From Caulobacter sp. FWC26 (lineage in GTDB: Bacteria > Pseudomonadota > Alphaproteobacteria > Caulobacterales > Caulobacteraceae): a stretch of DNA of 64,000 nt. Both the position numbers and the translations under genes were made by a program. The stretch covers positions 2,396,001 through 2,460,000 of the forward strand of contig NZ_CP033875.1 in the NCBI RefSeq assembly GCF_002742645.2, in the 5' to 3' direction. Numbering within the stretch: the stretch's first letter is position 1; each line of letters begins with the position of its first letter. The notes beneath the pieces are model-generated. The model searched no databases. It saw nothing but the letters and a program-made list of their open reading frames with translations, and had not been told where the DNA came from. Shown piece after piece: positions 3,751 to 8,685 of this stretch.

Positions 3751-3893
3751 GATTTTCCCGCTCTTTGCTCGCCTTCCTTCGACCGGAGGCGGCCGCCGGA
3801 GTCAACCGACCGGGACCGCGAGACCGGCTTGACCTTCCGGCGGAAGCCGCTACGACGCTCGCCCCCTCCCGCACCGCACGATCGAGCCCCTCC

Positions 3894-5234
3894 ATGACGG
3901 CCGCTTCCCCCGTTTCGGCCCCACGCGCGCCGACCATCGGCGTCGACTTCGGCACCACCAACACCGTGGTCTCGCTGACCCTGGGCGACGACCAGGCGCG
4001 CCTGGTGCGCTTCTCGATCGACAACCGCGACCTCTTCGCCTTCCGCTCCGCGCTCAGCTTCCACAGCGTCCAGGGCGTGGGCGACGCGGCGAACGAGCGG
4101 GTGGTCGAGGCCGGTCCCTGGGCGATCGAAGCCTATCTGGAAGATCCGCTGGAGACGCGGTTCATCCAGTCGTTCAAGACCTTCGCCGCATCGGCCGCCT
4201 TCACCGAGACCCGCATCCTCAACAAGCGCTACCAGTTCGAGGATCTGCTGGCCGCGTTTCTGCTGCGCCTGCGCGATCACGCGGGCGAGCAGCTCTCGAA
4301 CCTGCCGCCCCGGATCATCGTCGGCCGCCCGGTGACGTTCGCCGGCTCTTCGCCGGACGAGGCGCTGGCCCTGACCCGCTACGAAGCCGCGTTCCAACGC
4401 CTGGGCTTCACCGACATCCGCTACGCCTACGAGCCCGTCGGCGCGGCCTTCTTCTTCGCCCGACAGCTGAAGCAGGACGCCACCGTGCTGGTGGCCGACT
4501 TCGGCGGCGGCACCAGCGACTTCTCGCTCGTGCGGTTCGAGCGCGCGACGGACGGCACGCTGCGTTCGACGCCGCTTTCGCGCTCGGGCGTCGGCGTGGC
4601 GGGCGACGCCTTCGACTACCGGATCATCGACCAGCTGGTCTCACCGGAGCTGGGTAAGGGCTCGGACTACCGGTCGTTCTCCAACAGCCTGCCTATCCCG
4701 CAGCGCTACTACGCCGCCTTCGCACGCTGGGATCAGTTGGCGCTGCTGCGCGCCTCCAAGGACATGCGCGACATCCGCGCTCTGGAGCGCACGGCGCTGG
4801 AGCCTGACAAGATCGCCGCCCTGATCGAGGTGCTGGACGGCAATCACGGTTATGCCCTCTACCGCTCGGTCTCGGCGCTGAAGGAGGCGCTGTCGAGCCA
4901 GGCGCAAGCGACGTTCCGGTTCGAAGCCGGTTCGGTGCGGATCGAAAAGCCCGTCGCGCGGTCGGAGTTCGAAGCCTGGATCGCGCCCGAGCTCTCGGCG
5001 ATCGAAACGGCCGTGGGCCAGGCCCTCGACCTGGCCAACCTCACCGAGGCCGGCGTCGATCGGGTGTTCCTGACCGGCGGCAGCTCATTCGTGCCGGCGG
5101 TCCGCGAAATCTTCCTGCGCCGGTTCGGGGCCGGCAAGATCGAGACCGGCGGCGAGTTCGAGTCCATCGCCTCGGGCTTGGCGCTGATCGGCCGTGAGGC
5201 GGATCTCGACCTCTGGACCATGCGCGCAAGCTAG
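3894..5234 (+). CDS. Hsp70-family protein, YegD-like
   Basis: An actin-fold ATPase of the short Hsp70 group, 446 residues, lacking the long substrate-binding and lid region of DnaK. The phosphate-1 motif GVDFGTTNTVVSL is near residue 15, ADFGGGTSDFSLVRF (phosphate 2) near residue 200, and LTGGSSFVPAVREIF (adenosine motif) near the end. The reading frame is open upstream to 3765, but ATG 3894 puts the conserved motif at the usual distance from the start. E. coli YegD is the nearest known type; its client is unknown. It is divergent from the flavoprotein and has no co-chaperone gene beside it. Confidence 0.9.
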   Translation: MTAASPVSAPRAPTIGVDFGTTNTVVSLTLGDDQARLVRFSIDNRDLFAFRSALSFHSVQGVGDAANERVVEAGPWAIEAYLEDPLETRFIQSFKTFAASAAFTETRILNKRYQFEDLLAAFLLRLRDHAGEQLSNLPPRIIVGRPVTFAGSSPDEALALTRYEAAFQRLGFTDIRYAYEPVGAAFFFARQLKQDATVLVADFGGGTSDFSLVRFERATDGTLRSTPLSRSGVGVAGDAFDYRIIDQLVSPELGKGSDYRSFSNSLPIPQRYYAAFARWDQLALLRASKDMRDIRALERTALEPDKIAALIEVLDGNHGYALYRSVSALKEALSSQAQATFRFEAGSVRIEKPVARSEFEAWIAPELSAIETAVGQALDLANLTEAGVDRVFLTGGSSFVPAVREIFLRRFGAGKIETGGEFESIASGLALIGREADLDLWTMRAS

Positions 5235-5323
5235 CTGCTTCTCGCCGCATGGTGGCGCCCCGCGCTTTGGCTTAGGGTTAACGCGATCGATTCGCGTCGC
5301 GACCTTGTGGGGCAACGAGTCCA

Positions 5324-7762
5324 GTGCCGATTTCGTATCTGTCCGCCGCCCAGATCGCCGCCTTGGCGACGACGACGATACAGAACCTTTCGACGACCAA
5401 GCTGGAGTCGCTGACCAAGACCCAGGTCGGCGCGCTTTCAGAGGCGGCTATTGGCGTGCTGGACGCCAGTCAGGTTTCCGCGCTGTCGGCGACCCAGGTC
5501 AAGGGCCTGACGGCGACCCAGATCCCCGCCTTCTCGCAGAATCTGCTTTTCGACGTCGATCAGTTGCAGGCCTTCAGCGGCGCTCAACTAAACGCCCTGA
5601 CCTCCACCCAGCTGGCCAAGCTGGACGCCGATCGCCTCAAGGCGCTGAGCGCGATCCAGATCGGCGCGATGGACGCCACGCATTTCACCGCGCTCGACGC
5701 CACGCAGATCGCAGCGCTGGACACCACCCAGCTGGCCCAGCTGACGCCCACCCAGATCGCCGCCTTCAGCGTCACCGATCTGGAGGAGCTGTCCGCCGAC
5801 AAGATCGCCGCCCTGACCGCCACGCAGGTTGCGGCCCTCCCCGCCGATGTCATCCCGTCGCTGCAAGGCTCGCGTCTCGCCGCCCTCAGCGCCACCCAGC
5901 TGCAAAAGATGACGACCGACCAGATCGGCGCGTTGTCGACGACCCAGCTTCGCACCCTGGGCTCCAGCACCGCCGCGCTGGGGCCGAGCCAACTTGCCGC
6001 CCTGACCGCCGAGCAGACCGCGGCCTTCTCCGACGGCGTGGTCCAGGCGTTGACCGGGACGCAGCTGGGCGCATTGAGCCCGGAGGGCTTCTCGGGGCTA
6101 TCTGCGACGCAGGTGGCCAACCTTGGCGGCGATCAGATTTCTGGCCTCAAGACGACGCAGCTGCGGGCGCTCAGCGAGAACGACCTGGCGAAGTTCACCG
6201 CCGGGCAGATGCGAAGCTTCAGCGCCGCGCAGCTCGCGGGCTTGAGCACGACCGGCCTCAACAGCCTGAGCGTCGACCGGGTTCAGGTCTTTGACGCAAC
6301 CCAACTGACGGCGCTGACCGCCACGCAGTTCGCCGCCCTGACCGCCGACGACCTTGCAGAGTTCACGCCGGCCCAGGTCGAGGTGTTTACCACGACCCAG
6401 CTGGCTGCGCTCTCGACGACCAGCCTGAACAGCCTGGGCCGCGAGCAGATCCAGGCCCTGACGGCCACGCAGCTGAAGAGCCTGGGCAAGACGCAGGTTG
6501 GCGGGCTTTCCGAGACCAGCCTGGCCGCCTTCACCGCGGACCAGATTCAGGTGCTGAGCACGACCCAGCTCAGCGCTTTGTCGACGACACGTTTCAACAG
6601 CCTGGGCGCCACCCAGGTCCAGGCGCTGACCGCCACCCAACTGGCCGGGCTGACCACGACCCAGATCGCGGGCCTGACCCAGGACGACTTCGGAGAATTC
6701 ACGACCGATCAGGCGGAGGTCTTCAACAAGACCCAGATGGCGGCCCTGGCCACCACGACGCTGAACGCGATGTATCAAGGCGCGATCCAGGCCTTCACCC
6801 CATCGCAGCTGGCGGCGCTGACGACGACCCAGATCAGCGGACTGTCGAGCGTCGGCTTCGATAAGTTCTCCGAGACCCAGGTGAAGGCGTTCGCGCCGAC
6901 CCAGATCGCGGCCCTGAGTCCGGCCAACTTCAACCGGCTGAGCGCCAGCGCGATCCAGGCTCTTTCAGCATCGCAGCTCGGCAGCGTCAGCGTTACTCAG
7001 ATCGCGGCCCTGACTGAAACGGACTTCGCGCGCTTCACAGCGACCCAAGTCGCCAGCTTTAGCGGCGAGCAGATCGGCGCGCTGACGACGACCAACTTTA
7101 ATGGCCTGAGCCAGACCCAGATCGCGGCGCTGTCGTCCGCCCAGTTGGCGGGCGTCAGCGCGACCCAGATGGGCGGACTCACCAACACCGACCTGGCTGA
7201 ACTGTCGACGACCCAGTTCTCCGCTCTCACCGGCGCGCAGATCGGAGGGCTTTCGACCCGCCATCTTACCGGGCTTGACCGCACAGCGTTCCAAGCTCTG
7301 ACCCCCGCCCAGATTTCGGGCCTGAGCGCCAGCCAGCTCGGCGCGCTGTCGGCGACCGACATCGGCGACTTCACCCCCACCCAGATCGCCGCGTTGACCG
7401 CCTCCCAAATGATGGCGCTGTCGGTGACCAACCTGGCCAACCTGTCGTCCGAGCAGTACGCGGCGCTGACCCCAGACGCGCTCAAGGGCCTGTCGGCGTT
7501 CCAGCTGCGGAGCCTGTCGTCCAGCGCCTTCGGCCAACTTGACGCCACTCAGGTTCAGGCCCTCAGCCCCAGTCAGCTCGGCGCGCTTTCGACATCCGTG
7601 ATCGCCAGCCTGACCCCGACGCAGATCGGCTACCTCGCGCCGACCCAGATTCCGGGCCTGACGATCAATCAGCTGGACTGGCTGTCGACCACCAACATCG
7701 CCGCCATGACGCCGCTGCAGGTCGGCGCCTTCACGCCCGCGCAGGTCGAGAGCCTGGGCTAG
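5324..7762 (+). CDS. Giant octapeptide-repeat protein (Leu-Thr-x-Thr-Gln-Ile type)
   Basis: I do not recognise a named family. The 812-residue protein starts at a GTG and is almost entirely an eight-residue repeat: Leu at position 1, Ser/Thr at 2, often Thr at 4, Gln at 5, Ile/Leu/Val/Phe at 6, small residues at 7-8. I count about 99 octads, interrupted by a 6-residue unit at 71-76 and a 7-residue unit at 213-219. From residue 252 to 811 the octads form ten consecutive blocks of seven (56 residues each); block octad 5 tends to be acidic and Phe-ended, such as TQDDFGEF. There is no signal peptide, transmembrane segment, Cys, or other domain. Ser/Thr-x-x-Gln resembles a helix N-cap, so a helical or other solenoid is possible. 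It stands alone: 89 bases upstream, and its stop is 17 bases from the convergent LysR stop. Confidence 0.9.
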   Translation: MPISYLSAAQIAALATTTIQNLSTTKLESLTKTQVGALSEAAIGVLDASQVSALSATQVKGLTATQIPAFSQNLLFDVDQLQAFSGAQLNALTSTQLAKLDADRLKALSAIQIGAMDATHFTALDATQIAALDTTQLAQLTPTQIAAFSVTDLEELSADKIAALTATQVAALPADVIPSLQGSRLAALSATQLQKMTTDQIGALSTTQLRTLGSSTAALGPSQLAALTAEQTAAFSDGVVQALTGTQLGALSPEGFSGLSATQVANLGGDQISGLKTTQLRALSENDLAKFTAGQMRSFSAAQLAGLSTTGLNSLSVDRVQVFDATQLTALTATQFAALTADDLAEFTPAQVEVFTTTQLAALSTTSLNSLGREQIQALTATQLKSLGKTQVGGLSETSLAAFTADQIQVLSTTQLSALSTTRFNSLGATQVQALTATQLAGLTTTQIAGLTQDDFGEFTTDQAEVFNKTQMAALATTTLNAMYQGAIQAFTPSQLAALTTTQISGLSSVGFDKFSETQVKAFAPTQIAALSPANFNRLSASAIQALSASQLGSVSVTQIAALTETDFARFTATQVASFSGEQIGALTTTNFNGLSQTQIAALSSAQLAGVSATQMGGLTNTDLAELSTTQFSALTGAQIGGLSTRHLTGLDRTAFQALTPAQISGLSASQLGALSATDIGDFTPTQIAALTASQMMALSVTNLANLSSEQYAALTPDALKGLSAFQLRSLSSSAFGQLDATQVQALSPSQLGALSTSVIASLTPTQIGYLAPTQIPGLTINQLDWLSTTNIAAMTPLQVGAFTPAQVESLG

Positions 7763-7779
7763 AGTGTCGTCTAGCGGCC

Positions 7780-8685
7780 TTAGCCGCGGCTGGCGCCCAA
7801 GGCTTTCACGAGATAGCTGGCGAGCGCTTCCACGCGCGCCGGGCGCGGCCCGCCGGGTGGCATCACCAGGTGGAGCGCGATAGGCGTTGCGCTCCAGTCG
7901 CTAAGCACGACTTCCAACCGCCCCTCTGCGACGGCCGCCCCGACGATGAAGTCCGGCAACATCGCGACCCCTGTACCCGCCAGCAGCGCGGGCAGCAGGG
8001 CGTCGCCGTTGTTGGCGCGCAGCACCGAGCGGGGACGAACCGCAGCCTCATCGCCCGCGCCCTTCTGAAAGCGCCAGGTCTCGGGCGAGGCCTGATGGCC
8101 GTAGGTGAGGCCCCGATGCGCGGCGAGATCGGCCGGATGGTTCGGGCGTCCGTGACGATCCCAATAGATAGGCGCGGCCACGACGAAGCGGTTCACCGCT
8201 CGCAGCCGCCGCGCGACCAGCGAACTGTCGGGCAGGTCGGCGACACGCAGGGCGAGATCGAAACCCATGCCGATCAGGTCGACCGTGGCGTCGGACAGAT
8301 GCAGATCGACCGACACGTCGGGATAGGACGCCAGAAATTCCGGGAGAACGGGGGCTAGACTGGTCACGCCCAACGACATCGGCGCGGCCATCCGCACCAG
8401 GCCCCGCGGCGCGGCGGACTGGCTGGACGCCTCCTCCTCGGCCGCCTCGCCCTCGGCCAGCACGCGGCTGGCCCGTTCCACGAGGGCATGACCCGCGTCG
8501 GTCAGGGCGAGGCGGCGCGATGTTCGGTTGAACAGCCGCGCGCCCAGCCGCAACTCCAGCCGCGTCACCGCTTTTGACACCGTGGCCTTGGACATGGCGA
8601 GCTCCTCGGACGCGGCGGCGAACGAGCGGAGCTCCGCCACCTTGGCGAAGACCGCGAGACCTTCCAGATCAGGGAGCTTGGACAT
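7780..8685 (-). CDS. LysR-family transcriptional regulator
   Basis: A DNA-binding regulator of 301 residues. The N-terminal winged helix-turn-helix is clear (AKVAELRSFAAASEELAMSK then SKAVTRLE-type recognition helix, ending RTSRRLALTDAG). The rest is the LysR effector-binding domain, with the usual start VRMAAPMSLG near residue 97. The gene is divergent from the pirin gene, the classic LysR arrangement, so pirin is its likely target along with itself. A perfect inverted repeat sits between the two starts. The effector cannot be told from sequence. Confidence 0.93.
   Translation of the reverse strand: MSKLPDLEGLAVFAKVAELRSFAAASEELAMSKATVSKAVTRLELRLGARLFNRTSRRLALTDAGHALVERASRVLAEGEAAEEEASSQSAAPRGLVRMAAPMSLGVTSLAPVLPEFLASYPDVSVDLHLSDATVDLIGMGFDLALRVADLPDSSLVARRLRAVNRFVVAAPIYWDRHGRPNHPADLAAHRGLTYGHQASPETWRFQKGAGDEAAVRPRSVLRANNGDALLPALLAGTGVAMLPDFIVGAAVAEGRLEVVLSDWSATPIALHLVMPPGGPRPARVEALASYLVKALGASRG

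Follow-up and report, generated by a model that had tools for sequence, protein, structure and literature searches.

What is a protein made almost wholly of eight-residue repeats for? This question is raised by a gene in a stretch of 64,000 nucleotides from Caulobacter sp. FWC26 (contig NZ_CP033875.1, positions 2,396,001 to 2,460,000 of the forward strand; this whole stretch is referred to here as the window), the product of which (the window protein, 812 residues) is built from octapeptides, or octads, of the ALTTAQ family. The same genome carries a giant gene of this family beside a gene for a glycosyltransferase of family GT41. We hold with modest confidence that ALTTAQ proteins are rods serving as substrates of a dedicated cytoplasmic O-glycosyltransferase, and that the window protein, one of the short rods, is modified in trans. 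Genomes, loci and families are designated below by G, L and f numbers, respectively, G000 being the genome of FWC26 itself.

The window protein is a new member of a known family. Pfam PF20080 (ALTTAQ_rpt) matches it in 29 stretches at 310.2 bits, against a cut-off of 26.4 (1.1e-94), and tandem octads of the form L-[ST]-x-x-Q-[ILVF]-x-x, 99 in all, run along the protein. The preliminary description, made from the DNA alone, had recognized the octads but knew of no named family for them, and on this last point it was mistaken. Its account of the repeat held: dynamic-programming segmentation of the 812 residues gave a five-residue leader (MPISY), the octads, one six-residue and one seven-residue unit, and two trailing residues. 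Position 1 of the 99 octads is occupied by Leu (74), Phe (19), Met (4) or Val (2); Ser (42) or Thr (34) is frequent at position 2, Thr at position 4 (51) and Gln at position 5 (64), and position 6 is Leu, Ile, Val, Phe or Met in 96. No two octads are identical. An octad score above 5 was reached by 96 octads, and in 200 residue shuffles by 13 on average and 22 at most, a comparison that demonstrates order but is not an independent test, as the scoring matrix was trained on the window protein itself. Tandem repetition is weak at the DNA level (3.1 copies at best), indicating a diverged protein repeat rather than a recent DNA array. The start position is backed by the four orthologues of the gene, in which PISYLSA likewise comes directly after an initial M, V or L. 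As described earlier, there is no catalytic domain among the Pfam matches; no signal peptide or membrane span was seen by eye, no prediction program having been applied. A low-complexity reading frame with no function might also look like this, and the clean lack of the gene in a close relative (G008) would suit such a frame; this is extremely improbable, however, given that the frame is open in five genomes, with 51–79% identity to the window protein, conserved ends and a middle of variable length, and that a fold is confidently predicted for the protein.

Of 7996 candidates scored in a protein search, 323 qualified as homologues at E 0.001. Many of the 120 homologues listed carry a calpain-like protease domain (PF00648) and others RTX repeats (PF00353) or PF26745, and some bear DUF4347 names. 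The relatives are not limited to Caulobacterales, as the preliminary description had envisaged, but extend to other Alphaproteobacteria, Desulfovibrio, Polyangiaceae, Verrucomicrobia and more. One ALTTAQ protein (P0120) is listed under a eukaryotic data set, eukprot, with the label Mesvir1 (taken to mean the alga Mesostigma viride), which would reflect horizontal transfer or contamination. The window protein has no RTX match (PF00353) among families to E 1. CAAP1, LRR_EndoS and DUF4351 exceeded their cut-offs for it but were set aside as probable matches to Leu-rich composition, each with 0 independent stretches (LRR_EndoS, PF23952: 41.7 versus 27.9 bits; the leucine-rich repeat (LRR) profile PF13855 reached 13.4 versus 27 bits), and LRR chains found in sequence searches of the PDB were set aside for the same reason. 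Pfam names the repeat without stating any link to GT41, and in the literature searched no publication was found that names the ALTTAQ repeat, prints its motifs or connects it with GT41.

The connection with GT41 emerges from gene order. In G000, one further ALTTAQ gene was found, a giant of about 309 octads elsewhere in the genome than the window gene; it is followed directly by a gene encoding tetratricopeptide repeats (TPR) and a Glyco_transf_41 domain, and then by an FkbM-domain gene. In a set of 41 genomes (G000 included), nine had ALTTAQ, and all nine had a GT41 gene directly downstream of an ALTTAQ frame; G386 has the same order, as a tenth, and in these 10 pairs the genes lie on the same strand with a gap between open frames of –16 to 188 bp. 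GT41 was present in five of the 32 genomes of the set without ALTTAQ (six genes), none of them in the clade of ALTTAQ-linked enzymes. In a sample of 398 genomes of the phylum, ALTTAQ was found in 28 (25 over the family cut-off), GT41 in 133 (129 over the cut-off) and both in 19, G000 included. A wider scan, with an alignment of 12 linked GT41 sequences as the query and a collection with one genome per species as the target, yielded at least 530 relatives, of which the top 80 loci were retained, the query enzymes having been chosen for their position beside ALTTAQ. An ALTTAQ open reading frame (ORF) was present at 75 of the 80, and at 70 it preceded GT41 on the same strand by no more than 300 bp, with a median gap of 123 bp; at least two loci (L155, L156), the contigs of which equal those of query genomes in length, are probably query genomes again. 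The next most common neighbour cluster reached 17 loci at most (same-strand ORFs of at least 180 residues within 5–6 kb), and the octad detector was positive in two of 80 loci on reversed sequences. In the exceptions, ALTTAQ is on the other strand (L200, L217), nearest downstream (L208), 5.9 kb away (L225), in a frame overlapping the GT41 match (L227) or absent (L162, L220, L228); L220 spans 2.5 kb upstream, with an HlyD match, and L191 and L201 extend only 206 and 3 bases upstream. The loci come from Caulobacter, Phenylobacterium, Hyphomonadaceae, Magnetospirillum, Azospirillum, Roseomonas, Rhodoplanes, Methylosinus, Desulfovibrio, Polyangiaceae, Opitutaceae and Verrucomicrobiales. The third gene is not constant: an FkbM methyltransferase or TPR protein follows GT41 in some loci, and GT61 in L043 and L101. 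In G407 (family f45), GT41 begins 75 bp after an ALTTAQ ORF of 5446 residues (L094:7845-19501; L095:2-5185). Genomes of family f48 have long GT41 ORFs on ALTTAQ contigs (L098:5251-16596, 3781 residues with several GT41 matches; L097:1815-5714, 1299 residues), and G081 and G140 have 47 and 43 GT41 matches, respectively. At L225:9890-18613, in Niveispirillum, a tandem pair of GT41 genes accompanies genes for HlyD and an ATP-binding cassette (ABC) protein, and the contig ends within the first part of an ALTTAQ gene.

A candidate acceptor site is provided by position 4 of the octad. Octads were detected without the use of positions 3 and 4, and proteins with at least 60 octads were retained as the linked set, which comprises the giant of G000 and the proteins of 60 of the 75 loci (L200, on the opposite strand, and L208, downstream, included). 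The fraction of octads with Thr at position 4 (Thr4) averaged 0.69 in these 61 proteins (range 0.41–0.92), versus 0.19 in calpain-linked homologues (n = 46), 0.19 in those with PF26745 (n = 13) and 0.20 in the others (n = 61), these three groups being defined by domain content and not by gene neighbourhood. The phylum sample gave a similar picture: Thr4 was at least 0.25 in 18 of the 19 genomes with GT41 and at most 0.19 in all eight measurable genomes of the nine that have ALTTAQ but not GT41 (G171 had no measurable octads, and the values for G096 and G227 come from 13 and 8 octads, respectively). Within Caulobacter, the fraction was 0.53 in the window protein, 0.55–0.72 in its four orthologues and 0.32–0.48 in eight longer paralogues. 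The constant adjacency and the Thr4 enrichment together suggest that the rods are regularly decorated with sugars. TPR repeats bind peptides in other O-linked N-acetylglucosamine (O-GlcNAc) transferases (OGTs), and the adjacency would suit a complex as well as it suits an enzyme and its substrate; GT41 might thus act on other proteins, with the ALTTAQ solenoid as a non-covalent scaffold or anchor bound by its TPR part. This seems quite unlikely, as the contrast in Thr4 between linked and unlinked octads fits a substrate and is not obviously required in a scaffold.

In the mechanism proposed here, the core of the system would be a giant ALTTAQ protein, the gene of which immediately precedes that for its own GT41, an enzyme with TPR repeats and an OGT-like domain. 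This enzyme would attach a sugar to the octads in the cytoplasm, with Thr4 as the main acceptor; helix geometry would place this residue about 200 degrees away from core position 6, hence facing outward. The product would be a rod bearing a regular helical array of O-glycans, with about 3.4 octads per turn, and the short window protein, which has no adjoining GT41, would be modified in trans by the enzyme of the giant. What the data show directly are the sequence, the family, the predicted fold, the conserved gene pair, the Thr4 enrichment, the periodicity and the joint absence of the genes from one close relative; we infer glycosylation, acceptor position, modification in trans and how many octads make up a superhelical turn. 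The fullest version of the proposal, with giant rods (ORFs reaching 5446 residues and beyond) in several phyla, a dedicated GT41 sugaring most octads, about 3.43 sugars per turn and the window protein as a short rod modified in trans, is put forward tentatively, with rather more doubt than confidence. OGT-like GT41 genes are common in bacteria and, to our knowledge, few have a known substrate apart from FlmG with its flagellins; a pair conserved across phyla names a candidate substrate, with octad Thr4 as the site, and supplies a control group lacking the enzyme. If the proposal is correct, the rods would be a bacterial counterpart of mucin-like rods, a new class of very long, regularly glycosylated proteins and a natural class of substrates for bacterial SPINDLY/OGT-type enzymes, the targets of which are mostly unknown, and the octads would offer a modular scaffold for design. 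In the literature searched, no prior description of a conserved ALTTAQ–GT41 pair with the Thr4 mark was found.

The rod shape is taken from structure prediction. With an alignment of 26 sequences as input, AlphaFold2 modelled the full window protein as a solenoid to which each octad contributes one short helix (mean predicted local distance difference test score, pLDDT, 89.2; predicted template modelling score, pTM, 0.51). Nearly every octad has a predicted helix spanning approximately positions 3–7 (for example residues 8–12 of octad 6–13), directly preceded by Ser/Thr2. The model thus supports the solenoid, the Ser/Thr2 helix cap and the hydrophobic stripe of Leu1 and Ile6 proposed in the preliminary description, and on the best reading of this model the window protein is a rod-like solenoid capped by Ser/Thr2 and packed through Leu1 and Ile6. 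Foldseek and VIA-align comparisons with the PDB gave armadillo-like, mesothelin-like and similar resemblances that may reflect general arrangement only; the Z scores for mesothelin and armadillo-repeat proteins are in a range that possibly means no more than a common arrangement, and no convincing fold match was obtained for the solenoid model, the evidence being weak by the tool's own caution. Armadillo repeats are about 42 residues long, as against eight in the octads. PDB 9zem (‘HeliScrew4’, 120 residues) matches the window protein in sequence (phmmer 8.7e-16, profile 8.3e-34) and has the octad pattern in common with it; this entry is known here from its name and sequence alone, no paper on it was found, and it was not among the 50 fold-search matches listed (structure library to April 2026).

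A higher order, absent from the earlier description, is superimposed on the octads. In the window protein, octads seven apart (56 residues) have 3.30 identical positions, versus a median of 2.4, and the likeness recurs at 14 and 21 octads. The best lags in most other family members tried are among 4, 7, 10, 14, 17, 20, 24 and 28, close to multiples of 24/7 = 3.43. The spectrum of octad autocorrelation gave a pooled period of 3.43 octads, or 27.4 residues (3.515 for the window protein alone), which may correspond to the number of octads per superhelical turn. In the unrestricted spectrum, 60 of 62 proteins were testable (L178 and L229 were too short): 48 peaked at 3.35–3.5 and 11 at a period of 2, the edge of the range. 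The 11 proteins in which this alternation is the strongest periodicity are those of L180, L182, L187, L193, L194, L195, L196, L199, L202, L205 and L222. In the restricted range, 60 of 61 proteins (GT41-linked and window) exceeded all 20 octad shuffles and 58 peaked at 3.35–3.55, the outliers being one protein not above its shuffles and two peaking elsewhere (4.78 and 7.17). The same band was occupied by six of seven Caulobacter paralogues, but not by G425, a genome without GT41. Most unlinked homologues (96 of the 120 listed) were too short for the test; 12 of the 24 testable ones exceeded their shuffles and two fell in the 3.35–3.55 band. Two short orthologues differ in length from the 812 residues of the window protein by whole multiples of the seven-octad block, L040 (756 residues) being 56 shorter and L042 (531 residues) 280 shorter, if its terminal Gly is discounted.

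The enzyme encoded downstream of the giant matches PF13844 at 279 bits (cut-off 25), its TPR matches being mostly under the cut-offs. Its closest solved relative is XcOGT from Xanthomonas campestris (PDB 2jlb, 2vsn and others; 1e-90, residues 81–629 aligned), which belongs to family GT41 together with human OGT and SPINDLY. His290 and Lys459 of the 699-residue enzyme align with a His and a Lys of XcOGT that we take to be catalytic, and they are invariant in the 12 linked GT41 sequences aligned. We know of no natural substrate of XcOGT; the enzyme of the giant, unlike XcOGT, has a candidate substrate encoded next door. In a tree, from which L098 (3781 residues) was excluded for its length, the linked enzymes form one supported clade (97/98; 15 of 29 rows), apart from a clade of GT41 proteins of about 600 residues, and G000 has one gene in each. 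The latter clade is probably FlmG, judging from length. FlmG of Caulobacter crescentus is presented in one report as a protein of 596 residues with TPR repeats and an OGT-like domain, which glycosylates the flagellins in the cytoplasm (PMC7591256). The enzyme of the giant resembles it in domain composition and genus, but does not group with the putative FlmG clade, has about 700 residues and has an ALTTAQ gene as its constant neighbour.

No match to GT41 was found near the window gene or its four orthologues (G001, G003, G006, G016), the gene and the giant occupy different genomic places, and the fractions of Thr4 and of Ser/Thr3 (0.24) are below those of most giants. It is therefore possible, though unlikely, that the giant is a substrate of GT41 and the window protein an unmodified relative with another task, as a spacer, adhesin or scaffold. 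Modification in trans is preferred for several reasons: Thr4 in the window protein is still far above the value of about 0.20 in unlinked homologues; the seven-octad order, the periodicity of 3.4–3.5 and both ends are common to the window protein and the giant; the genomes of all four orthologues also hold a GT41-linked ALTTAQ gene; and the window gene, the giant and the linked GT41 are jointly absent from G008, which is suggestive. In G008, there is no ALTTAQ match, the window protein is unmatched and only the other type of GT41 is present; the Hsp70 gene is 95% identical, the site beside it is empty, and the window flanks align over 167 and 128 columns.

Genes for ABC and HlyD proteins lie directly upstream of ALTTAQ–GT41 in Roseomonas rubea and Neoroseomonas (L223, L224) and nearby in L225; an ABC transporter with a C39-like domain is near in G113, and HlyD in G085. 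These neighbours make type I export likely in lineages with adjacent ABC/HlyD genes, and some homologues have RTX domains or DUF4347 names. On such grounds, ALTTAQ proteins might be ordinary extracellular spacers or adhesins, exported by a type I system and unglycosylated, with the octads as a rigid stalk. We regard this as improbable: it leaves GT41 as a near-constant neighbour unexplained, the window protein has no match to the RTX family, and proteins related to the Niveispirillum transporter, sought with one ABC and one HlyD query, showed no specificity for ALTTAQ-bearing genomes among 25 of the same genus. For ABC, the strongest matches (E < 1e-130) were in 10 genomes, two of the nine with ALTTAQ (G003, G004) and eight of the 32 without, and the HlyD matches were likewise unspecific; with these two queries, type I export in Caulobacter was not supported. 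No ABC or HlyD gene was found among the four scanned neighbours of the window gene (Hsp70, LysR, HI0933 and pirin), and the neighbourhoods of the giants are only partly annotated.

Several points weigh against the proposal that the rods are GT41 substrates modified at Thr4, a glycan on the rods being a prediction from sequence. Position 4 is not universal, as G407 has the gene pair and yet a Thr4 fraction of 0.03–0.07, with 0.68–0.74 for Ser/Thr3. This richness at position 3 may indicate a different acceptor position in G407. Lineage confounds the contrast in Thr4, as few families stand behind it in the phylum sample (f1 and f48 high, f45 low, and f13, f39, f44 and f50 without GT41), and some of the genomes lacking GT41 are weak members, given that not all ALTTAQ genomes exceed the family cut-off. 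Thr4 is intermediate in the window protein and lower still in the eight longer paralogues. Several rows of the GT41 tree, G407 included, have long branches. The lags could stem from duplication in whole blocks rather than from turns, and the block of seven octads itself fits the orthologue lengths only partly, L044 (532 residues) being off by one and L045 (724 residues) not fitting; the shorter octad runs of unlinked homologues give the periodicity test less power there. For the joint absence, G008 is the single example, and the non-specificity of the Niveispirillum ABC and HlyD relatives also counts on this side.

The features of the locus are listed in Table 1. The short gene lies between the Hsp70 and LysR genes in G000, G001, G003 and G006; in G016, Hsp70 is about 1.1 kb upstream. 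Hsp70 was rejected as a functional partner, as it is kept in most same-genus genomes lacking the short ALTTAQ gene. Promoter and Rfam scans of the locus gave nothing useful.

Table 1. Features at and around the short ALTTAQ gene (positions within the window).
Feature	Positions	Strand	Basis or remark
Short ALTTAQ-repeat protein, 812 residues, 99 octads	5324..7762	+	GTG start; ORF call, segmentation and Pfam match
Conserved N-terminal region, residues 1-172	5324..5839	+	gap-free in all five short orthologues; N-terminus of the giant matches, 52%
Irregular six-residue unit, residues 70-75	5531..5548	+	segmentation
24-octad piece, residues 78-270, folded alone	5555..6133	+	pLDDT 94.0, pTM 0.87
Irregular seven-residue unit, residues 212-218	5957..5977	+	segmentation; within one longer helix, 206-218, in the AlphaFold2 model
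Conserved C-terminal region, residues 700-812	7421..7759	+	no internal gaps across five short orthologues
Hsp70/YegD-like neighbour gene	3765..5234	+	in 23 of 25 same-genus genomes at E 1e-60
LysR-type regulator neighbour, convergent	7780..8685	-	also at the empty site
Stretch absent from close relative G008, approximate	5317..7772	.	empty site between Hsp70 and LysR genes

Other paralogues of the genus, with 132–170 octads, are not adjacent to GT41 (L048:4968-9044, L102:8277-12308, L107:8495-12769 and L113:7044-10319), and one such ALTTAQ gene is followed by a gene for a TonB-dependent receptor (L102:12412-14904).

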